Position numbers and translations under genes: made by a program
The notes under the pieces: generated by a model
Databases searched by the model: none
Told to the model about the DNA's origin: nothing
What the model saw: only the letters and a program-made list of their open reading frames with translations
Shown: one piece after another, positions 3,632-18,979 of the stretch
Layout of the letters: each line of letters begins with the position of its first letter
How positions within the stretch are numbered: position 1 is the first letter of the stretch
DNA from: an uncultured Bacteroidia bacterium
Lineage (GTDB): Bacteria; Bacteroidota; Bacteroidia; Bacteroidales; F082
Direction of reading: 5' to 3'
Assembly (NCBI GenBank): GCA_902767725.1
Contig: CACXIM010000013.1
Span: forward strand, 1-44,095
Length of the DNA stretch: 44,095 bases

Positions 3632-3750
3632 CGTCATGGCGGAGAGGCATCCGCCATCTCCTGAGCAAGAAGAGAGACTCGTTTGCTTTAGGAGATTGAC
3701 TCGCTCCGCATCGTCGAATCTTCGATTTGCGGATCGAGTCCGCAATGACG
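3632..3750. repeat. Hairpin repeat pair, family C (copy C3)
   Basis: Two hairpin modules face each other. The first is 3632-3664, beginning CGTCATGGCGGA and ending TCTCCTGA. The second is 3728-3750, TGCGGATCGAGTCCGC followed by AATGACG. Both match the arms of the element at 7103-7220. This fills most of the gap between the lipoprotein and the polyprenyl synthase genes (3566-3850). Confidence 0.65.
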
Positions 3751-7013: not shown

Positions 7014-7333
7014 AGATTCCCCCCGGGGAATGGAGTGCTGTTGATATATAATAACGCGGCGGCCTAAGTTACCTTCAAATACCAAAGACACCCCCTTCTT
7101 CCTCAGGAGATGGCGGATCCTTGTCCGCCATGACGGCCTAAGGGTGTAGTGTAGTATCCCAGAAGCAATCACAAACCCGTTTCAAAGCGTCATCGCGGAC
7201 TCGATCCGCGATCTCCTGAAGACAAGTTCCATAAGCCGCCGCCGAATAGGAGCAACAACCCTCCATTAACTCCGTTGAAATGCTCTGCATTCGATGAAAT
7301 CAATCTTCGATTTCCCGCACAGCGGGAATCTTA
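7014..7333. repeat. Composite inverted-repeat element, family D with nested family C
   Basis: This stretch fills most of the 456-base gap between queA and the GtrA-like gene. The left arm AGATTCCCCCCGGGGAATGG (7014-7033) continues to GCGGCGGCCTA. The right side holds CATAAGCCGCCGC (7231-7243), TTAACTCC, and TTTCCCGCACAGCGGGAATC near the end. Both sides correspond to the arms of the clean copy at 31303-31432. Between the arms sits a complete family C element (7103-7220), suggesting insertion of one repeat into another. Confidence 0.6.
7103..7220. repeat. Inverted hairpin element, family C (copy C1)
   Basis: The left arm starts TCAGGAGATGGCGGATCC; the right arm read in reverse complement starts TCAGGAGATCGCGGATCG. 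Each arm is itself a hairpin (GGCGGA/TCCGCC and CGCGGA/TCCGCG) ending in ATGACG. The interior is about 93% identical (6 differences in about 85 bases) to 18871-18955, which lies in the opposite orientation. Confidence 0.8.
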
Positions 7334-14235: not shown

Positions 14236-14263
14236 CGTCATTGCGAGGAACGAAGCAATCTAG
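14236..14263 (+). repeat. Left inverted hairpin repeat of the GIY-YIG unit, family B
   Basis: CGTCATTGCGAGG followed by AACGAAGCAATCTAG. The stem ATTGC/GCAAT can form within it. The reverse complement recurs at 14618-14651 with a 6-base insertion. Confidence 0.85.
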
Positions 14264-14318
14264 GGAGGCAACCTTCATAATAGATAATTACCTTTGCCAA
14301 CGAAAAATCCCTATTCTA

Positions 14319-14609
14319 ATGGAAAAGAAAGGATACGTCTACATATTGTTCAGCCGAAGAAACGGCACCCTTTATACTGGTGTGACATCAGATTTGAAAC
14401 GGCGCGTGTACGAACATAAAACGAAACTCCATCCTAATAGTTTCTCGGCAAAATATGATGTTGACAAACTGGGGTATTACGAAGAATACGTTTCCGTCAA
14501 AGAAGCAATCGAAAGAGAGAAACAAATCAAAGGTGGTTCAAGAGCAGCAAAACTTGCCTTGATTGAGGGGATGAATCCACGGTGGGAAGATTTGTACTAC
14601 TTATTATAG
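14319..14609 (+). CDS. GIY-YIG nuclease family protein (repeat-flanked)
   Basis: A 96-residue single-domain GIY-YIG endonuclease. The two half-motifs are present as YVYIL (7-11) and LYTG (18-21). The catalytic Arg is in DLKRRVYEHK, and the metal-binding Glu is in EAIEREKQIKGGSR. The C-terminus MNPRWEDLYYLL is typical of this small bacterial subfamily, which resembles UvrC/SLX1 N-termini. An in-frame TTG at 14241 would add 26 residues but lies inside the repeat; the ATG at 14319 matches the family start. The gene occupies the interior of a 416-base unit bounded by inverted copies of one hairpin repeat (14236-14263, 14618-14651), which suggests it moves with, or acts on, that repeat. Its biological role is unknown. 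Confidence 0.85.
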   Translation: MEKKGYVYILFSRRNGTLYTGVTSDLKRRVYEHKTKLHPNSFSAKYDVDKLGYYEEYVSVKEAIEREKQIKGGSRAAKLALIEGMNPRWEDLYYLL

Positions 14610-14617
14610 TCTCATCA

Positions 14618-14651
14618 CTAGATTGCTTCGTCGTGCCTCCTCGCAATGACG
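14618..14651 (-). repeat. Right inverted hairpin repeat of the GIY-YIG unit, family B
   Basis: CTAGATTGCTTCG, a 6-base extra segment, then CCTCGCAATGACG. This is the reverse complement of the left copy at 14236-14263. It starts 8 bases after the nuclease stop codon. Confidence 0.85.
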
Positions 14652-18672: not shown

Positions 18673-18979
18673 GGGACATCCTCTGAGGGACAGATTTCTT
18701 ATTCTATGTGAAAACAGGCGTCACCAGGCATGTCATCCCTACGGGAGCCAGTGGGCAAAGGCTTGGGATCTATGCATGGTGAGGCCGTCATATTAAGTCA
18801 TTGCCGTTTGTTCCGCTTCCCATAGATTCCCCCTCCCACACATACCTCTGCAGGAATGACATGGGAGGCTAGTCCGCGATGACGCTTTGAAACGGGTCTG
18901 TAAATGCTTCTGGGATACTACGCTACACCCTTAGGCCGTCTTGGCGGACAAGGATACGCGAGGACGCTTTGTAGCGTGA
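18673..18979. repeat. Repeat-bearing 307-base gap, with family C copy C2 at 18871-18955
   Basis: No gene is supported here. Bases 18871-18955 are about 93% identical, in reverse orientation, to the interior of the element at 7103-7220, with both outer arms truncated. Bases 18765-18838 contain a weak inverted repeat (GGGATCTATG against CATAGATTCCC). Confidence 0.7.

Follow-up and report, generated by a model that had tools for sequence, protein, structure and literature searches.

The window, that is, the whole stretch of 44,095 nucleotides analysed, carries at 14236-14651 a unit of 416 bases with a single ORF. The left end of the unit is a CGTC repeat of 28 nt (14236-14263, + strand), composed of CGTC, an ATTGC/GCAAT stem and a CTAG tail. 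The right end is an inverted CGTC repeat of 34 nt (14618-14651, - strand), which has a 6-nt insertion in the loop region and is otherwise identical to the left copy. The GIY-YIG nuclease gene P0001 lies between them (14319-14609, + strand) as an intact ORF of 96 codons, with a Pfam GIY-YIG match at E 4e-16. These features agree with the original prediction, in which an intact gene for a 96-residue GIY-YIG nuclease was placed between inverted copies of one repeat differing by one 6-base indel. The repeat had also been called a hairpin. The strong inverted complementarity lies between the two arms, and each arm singly is a weak hairpin. When folded alone, the left arm (5-bp ATTGC/GCAAT stem) and the right arm (with a best fold different from that of the left) were no more stable than shuffled sequences, with z of -0.58 and -0.42, respectively. 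Neither introns nor genes for reverse transcriptase were recognized in the 416-base unit, and no known RNA family matched the window at gathering score. A Y1 transposase gene, as predicted for the same window, is located at 1955-2410.

Repeat families and the nuclease in its own genome

The ATTGC-stem repeat, searched for as GTCATTGCGAGN{0,30}CGAAGCAATC, is present in 42 copies in the own genome, which totals 3.06 Mb on 153 contigs, and the reversed control gave 0, so the repeat is not a product of chance. The broader pattern GTCATNNCN{6,30}GNNATCT had 177 matches in this genome versus 7 for its control. Further CGTC hairpins were recognized in the window at 3633-3659 (+ strand, ATGGC..GCCAT stem), 7108-7134 (- strand, ATGGC stem) and 7189-7214 (+ strand, ATCGC stem, in opposed orientation to the previous copy). 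The stems of the 3633 and 7189 copies are 8 bp each when folded, and the ATGGCGG and ATCGCGG stem classes of all three have more copies elsewhere in the genome. The modules at 3632-3750 and 7103-7220 had been suggested as possible non-autonomous relatives. They are related by the CGTC-hairpin architecture, but their stem classes are unlike that of the unit, and no nuclease of their own was identified. Another pair of inverted partners consists of TGTC hairpins at 18732-18771 (+ strand, ATCCC stem) and 18824-18860 (- strand, ATTCC stem).

Repeat families differ with the nuclease subfamily. Four of the seven GIY-YIG loci of the own genome have hairpins nearby: L003 and L005 have ATTGC repeats, while L002 and L004 represent a second nuclease subfamily with a distinct TGTC-ATTCC/ATCCC repeat, the type found at 18732-18860 in the window. 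No GTC hairpins were found at the other three GIY-YIG loci of this genome, L001, L006 (a 615-codon ORF) and L007. L005, on contig C20 of this genome (G000), is a second close nuclease; its ORF stops after 82 codons and lies among arrayed repeat pairs.

GIY-YIG is the only Pfam match of the 96-aa protein, and its fold neighbours are GIY-YIG proteins. An alignment of 22 sequences shows no variation at Y8, Y19, G21, R29, H33, E67 and K71. In GIY-YIG nucleases, two conserved Tyr residues and conserved Arg, His and Glu residues have functional roles, and the GIY-YIG domain together with invariant Y8, Y19, R29, H33 and E67 identifies the protein as a member of this family. Its AlphaFold2 model has a pLDDT of 95.5. 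The best Foldseek match, and the only one with E below 0.001, was 1zg2 (UPF0213; E 3.9e-4), followed by Slx1 with weaker E-values. Profile searches matched the UPF0213 structures 1zg2 (E 5.7e-8) and 1ywl (E 7.3e-5), while a single-sequence search matched neither, and no model named UPF0213 was returned for the protein from Pfam or NCBIfam. These closest solved sequence relatives are entries named hypothetical proteins. Slx1 is a structure-selective enzyme that cuts branched DNA; it is larger, works with Slx4 and is not known as a mobile-element enzyme. GIY-YIG domains also serve mobile DNA in homing endonucleases and Penelope-like elements, from which the present unit differs in having the 96-codon ORF alone. 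Assignment to the group I intron endonucleases (TIGR01453) was rejected, with 24.6 bits against a curated cut-off of 56.05. In the AlphaFold2 model, helix 60-72 is joined to helix 75-85 by a turn that includes residue 73, a position that fits, but does not prove, a DNA-contacting loop.

Repeats beside homologous nucleases

Homologues were collected in a pattern-based scan of named genomes, and the best 80 of at least 581 loci were picked by protein alone, so nearer relatives are over-represented among them. These 80 best loci cover 14 named phyla, with 7 loci having no phylum assignment. The association of nuclease and repeat extends across phyla: GTCATTGCGAG with at most one mismatch was found within 500 bp of the gene at 72 of the best 80 of at least 581 loci, and the positives cover 13 named phyla. 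In the same 80 of at least 581 loci, its density was 4.07/kb near the gene (313 matches in 77.0 kb) versus 0.18/kb in the far flanks (24 matches in 134.0 kb), where it occurs at 12 loci. When loci with full flanks were compared with random gene-sized windows taken from these loci, 59/67 and 33/462, respectively, had the repeat. Enrichment beside homologues, on which the original prediction depended, is found, and homologues that lack the repeat are few among these 80.

A generic hairpin was defined as GTC followed by a perfect 5-bp stem starting with AT and ending before C, the rest of the stem being free. There were 209 near matches at 67 of the 80 best of at least 581 loci, in 14 named phyla, versus at most 8 near matches for each of the other 63 three-base prefixes; far flanks of these loci had 21 matches at 11 loci. 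Either GTCATTGCGAG or the generic hairpin was present at 77/80 of these best loci of at least 581. A six-base search for any stem, made free of the AT rule, separated near and far regions poorly, and the AT start of the stem therefore matters to the signal. Variant stems occur among the eight loci that have no GTCATTGCGAG, namely ATCGC at L093 (found by eye), ATTCT at L111 and L139, ATCCT at L147, and ATCCC/ATGCC at L121 and L136, while L107 has just a nearby hairpin formed by part of the sequence.

The arrays are symmetric and alternating. At 56 of the best 80 of at least 581 loci, the nuclease is preceded by a + copy and followed by a - copy. The nearest repeats are arranged as >[NUC]< at 36 of these 80 and as <[NUC]>, with the gene between their backs, at 13, and neighbouring repeats alternate in orientation in 203 cases versus 61 in the same orientation. 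Genomes G101, G103 and G108 are related and share the nuclease and its site; their upstream arrays comprise 2, 4 and 2 units, respectively. At L244, on a plasmid of Planktothrix agardhii, the nuclease and its repeats lie between the gene of an MmeI-type restriction enzyme and the DISARM drmA gene.

The class of the stem follows residue 73 of the nuclease. A table of residues and stems was compiled with 127 rows and stems starting with AT or AC; duplicate loci L003, L039, L077 and L079 were removed, and some identical proteins are kept in it (e.g., L041/L078, L050/L080 and L044/L045/L046). Gly73 goes with stems ending in GC in 72/74 rows, and a non-Gly residue with other stems in 23/23. Exact hairpins within 500 bp are absent from 28 of the 127 rows, and two rows, both with GC stems, are gapped at residue 73. 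On a tree inferred after exclusion of the motif columns, residue 73 changed at least seven times, four of these changes being forced by supported branches. Of the four supported independent pairs, an average of 3.8 have the stem varying in the direction of the residue, and none has it varying in the opposite one; the sign test is not significant (median p 0.125) because there are just four such pairs. The link between residue and stem is partly a matter of shared ancestry.

After nucleases with W in place of G73 had shown other stems, a W-type query was run on PLSDB. Of 34 records found, 15 were fetched, the other 19 being near-duplicates, records of the same genus or the weakest match. GTC hairpins are present within 500 bp at 11 of the 15 loci, all with non-GC stems (ATTCC, ATCCC, ATCCT, ATTCT). 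No such hairpin within this distance was found at L238, L239, L248 and, by the strict rule, L249; L238 and L239 represent 12 of the 34 records. The Neisseria gonorrhoeae locus (L237) has 11 hairpins of GTCATTCCC-type (dRS3-type) within 1 kb of flank. This record is of chromosome size and filed as a plasmid, and the PLSDB gene table lists no feature at its GIY-YIG gene. Nucleases with an IKxWxR motif at L057, L058, L061, L065 and L067 are located among larger direct repeats, which are possibly another repeat class; the GTC hairpin was not found at these five loci.

Copy number and site polymorphism in related genomes

Among 99 genomes of the genus, all 16 with a close nuclease (64-100% identity) have at least 14 repeat copies, with a median of 31.5. 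The 83 genomes in which a close nuclease is absent have a median of 0, yet 24 of them have at least 10 copies. The best loci of all 16 close-nuclease genomes carry the repeat core within 500 bp, L053 having it without a perfect hairpin. In the phylum (247 genomes), a nuclease match with E of at most 0.001 was found in 54/58 repeat-bearing versus 102/189 repeat-free genomes. The corresponding odds ratio of 11.5 is uncorrected for kinship, and many of the matches are weak and could represent other GIY-YIG proteins. The original prediction would have suffered if the repeats were equally common in genomes with no nuclease. Overall they are not, but repeat-rich genomes with no match exist: the ATTGC repeat reaches 426 copies, the highest number in that search, in the one-contig genome G174, and it is also present in G279, G305 and G374, all four without a nuclease match.

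The elements are polymorphic in their sites. From 29 repeats in G108, 22 sites were used in a comparison with G103, and 19 of them had a counterpart. At 12 of these 19 orthologous sites the copy (at most one mismatch) is absent from G103 and at 7 the element is shared, with loss and gain unpolarised. Eight of the 12 sites correspond to a gap of at least 25 bases covering the element, while other gaps of this kind number six in 45 kb. Among the remaining four, L212 and L214 are at the end of the alignment, and L187 and L190 are replaced with no such gap. At L193 the counterpart is cut at a contig end, and the element is shared there. Empty sites in related genomes had been proposed as a check, and in part they are found, although several sites are replaced instead of being cleanly empty. 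At L194/L226 and L198/L218 (G108/G103) the relative holds other sequence, and that of L218 contains a palindrome.

The nuclease gene itself also differs in its presence at a site. In the own genome it stands beside a gene that we take to be DUF4837-like, and 30 loci were fetched from 96 genomes with a DUF4837-like gene. Between this gene and a lipoprotein gene, the nuclease is present in G000 and G098. Eighteen other loci with both genes have a gap of 6-146 bp and no nuclease; the lipoprotein match of G067, one of these 18, is reversed, and in G080 the contig ends inside repeats. According to the comparison of flanks, the nucleases of G080 and G106 have similar neighbours, and the close nucleases occupy at least three different sites. 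Neither a target-site duplication nor an exact insertion junction could be fixed at the DUF4837-like site or between G108 and G103.

Comparison with known systems and proposed role of the nuclease

The repeats resemble a class described by Di Nocera et al. 2013 (PMC3733652) as CGTC-tagged REPs, which are listed there for five phyla and said to "apparently lack a dedicated transposase". In that paper, loop variants are noted, CGTC-1 is identified with dRS3 of Neisseria and RPE-6 of R. conorii, and CGTC-4 with RPE-4. The likeness consists of a CGTC/TGTC tag, a stem starting with AT and mostly inverted dimers, with a short tail of differing sequence. Both 14236-14263 and 14618-14651 have the unpaired tag and the AT-starting stem, and copies are many and mostly paired in inversion (42 copies in the own genome; alternation 203 to 61 around the nuclease at the best 80 of at least 581 loci). 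The stem of 8-9 bp and loop of 4-5 nt are not present in the window arms, as the left has 5 bp and the right folds otherwise. The tail is CTAG in the window copies and CCAG in the ATTGC copies at L005, while the CGTC REP consensus in PMC3733652 is CCA. For the CGTC REPs described there, from five phyla, no dedicated enzyme was reported; here there is a candidate nuclease, and the same hairpin grammar occurs beside it in 14 named phyla.

The second system compared is that of RAYT (TnpAREP) transposases with GTAG REPs and REPINs, for which the criteria given in PMC2817692 were used; in vitro processing of single-stranded REPs by the TnpAREP of E. coli is reported in PMC8266576. Common to both are a small nuclease gene between inverted REPs (here in the window and at 56 of the best 80 of at least 581 loci), alternating arrays, covariation of nuclease and repeat (72/74 and 23/23, with the four supported pairs not significant) and a correlation of enzyme presence with repeat abundance, here uncorrected for kinship and with exceptions such as G174. 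The difference lies in the enzyme and tag: a GIY-YIG fold of about 96 aa and CGTC here, an HUH Y1 enzyme and GTAG there. Neither the HUH motif nor a Y1 transposase domain was recognized in the 96-aa nuclease by Pfam or fold comparison.

The parallel with REPs and RAYTs drawn in the original prediction stands wherever it could be computed, in the inverted flanks across phyla, the absence of the repeat from Y1 loci, covariation, dispersed copies and the presence or absence of elements at sites. The association of nuclease and repeat and its specificity are strong computational results. As matching hairpin repeats flank its relatives in many bacterial groups, there is a strong case for the nuclease as the candidate enzyme behind the spread of the repeats. 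The best reading is a RAYT/REPIN-like system on an unrelated nuclease fold, in which the nuclease would cleave and mobilise the repeats. The small UPF0213-like GIY-YIG nuclease probably serves the CGTC-tagged REP superfamily as its dedicated enzyme, in the way that the Y1 transposase RAYT serves GTAG REPs.

In the mechanism we propose, the nuclease would recognise the hairpin by binding the unpaired (C/T)GTC tag and the folded AT..AT stem-loop, probably as a single strand or cruciform, and the loop between the last long helices (IK-x-73-x-R) would help to read the stem. A nick would be made beside the tag, and the released element, either the inverted-pair unit or the whole 416 bases including the gene, would then be copied to other intergenic places via host replication and repair. 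The dependence on the host would follow from the chemistry, because GIY-YIG enzymes hydrolyse DNA and are not known to rejoin it or to possess strand-transfer chemistry. Pairs of the form >..< with no gene would be the non-autonomous form and >[nuclease]< the autonomous one.

The same hydrolytic chemistry, and Slx1 as the nearest experimental fold after 1zg2, would also suit a host caretaker that trims or resolves hairpin or cruciform repeats, comparable to Slx1 and SbcCD on branched DNA, with the flanking repeats serving for control and their spread caused otherwise. This is unlikely, as a caretaker has no need to be nested inside repeats as >[NUC]<, to occupy several unrelated sites in close relatives or to match the stem class of the local repeats.

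The nuclease could also be a passenger, a small gene once caught between two repeats and having no part in their spread. Repeats do persist in genomes with no detected nuclease, and the nuclease activity is a predicted one. Still, this is decidedly unlikely, since the stem class and residue 73 change together from subfamily to subfamily, each of the two subfamilies in one genome is paired with a repeat of its own, the two Tyr positions and those of Arg, His and Glu do not vary among the 22 aligned sequences, and a passenger is not expected beside matching hairpins in 14 named phyla.

Y1 transposases of RAYT type, moving the repeats in trans with the nuclease gene being incidental, are the third alternative. 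Y1 genes are present in 70 of the 99 genus genomes, including all 16 with the close nuclease, and they track copy number, at least 10 repeats occurring in 39/70 genomes with Y1 versus 1/29 genomes in which it is absent. However, even among Y1-bearing genomes there are more repeats where the nuclease is present. Around the nine Y1 loci of the own genome (L068-L076), neither the CGTC repeat nor a GTC-A[TC] hairpin was found within about 500 bp (0/9; L068, L075 and L076 scanned whole), and according to PMC3733652 the CGTC units do not flank tyrosine transposase genes of CGTC-bearing species. Y1 was set aside as the mobiliser, a role that is very unlikely. The Y1 loci carry other palindromic repeats, e.g., CCCCGTAGGGG at L068.

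Gathering of gene and repeats in the same repeat-tolerant intergenic islands is highly improbable, for although the window unit and the polymorphic elements viewed are mostly intergenic, repeats are few in the far flanks and random windows of the same loci and absent from the Y1 loci of the own genome.

Returning to the nuclease as the dedicated enzyme, we are evenly divided on a broader reading. In it, GIY-YIG nucleases of about 96 aa would be an unrecognised pan-bacterial class of minimal mobile elements, with a 400-base autonomous unit and hairpin ends, mobilising CGTC-type REPs including Neisseria dRS3, and probably Rickettsia RPE-4/RPE-6, by a hydrolytic nick-and-copy unlike that of known transposases, with the residue-73 loop setting specificity. 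If true, REP-type partnerships of repeat and nuclease arose at least twice from unrelated nuclease folds, and GIY-YIG nucleases have a new biological role. Genes that bear no annotation beyond 'GIY-YIG nuclease family protein' or 'excinuclease ABC subunit C' would then obtain a candidate function. CGTC REPs occur in many bacteria and, according to PMC3733652, apparently have no transposase of their own, and a candidate of 96 residues with a predicted specificity position makes the question testable.

In the open-licence literature, bioRxiv aside, no link between GIY-YIG proteins and REPs was found, including passages of PMC12306157, PMC6006769 and PMC8049555. RayT and a GIY-YIG gene appear, unlinked, in one table of clade genes in the excerpt of PMC9465073.
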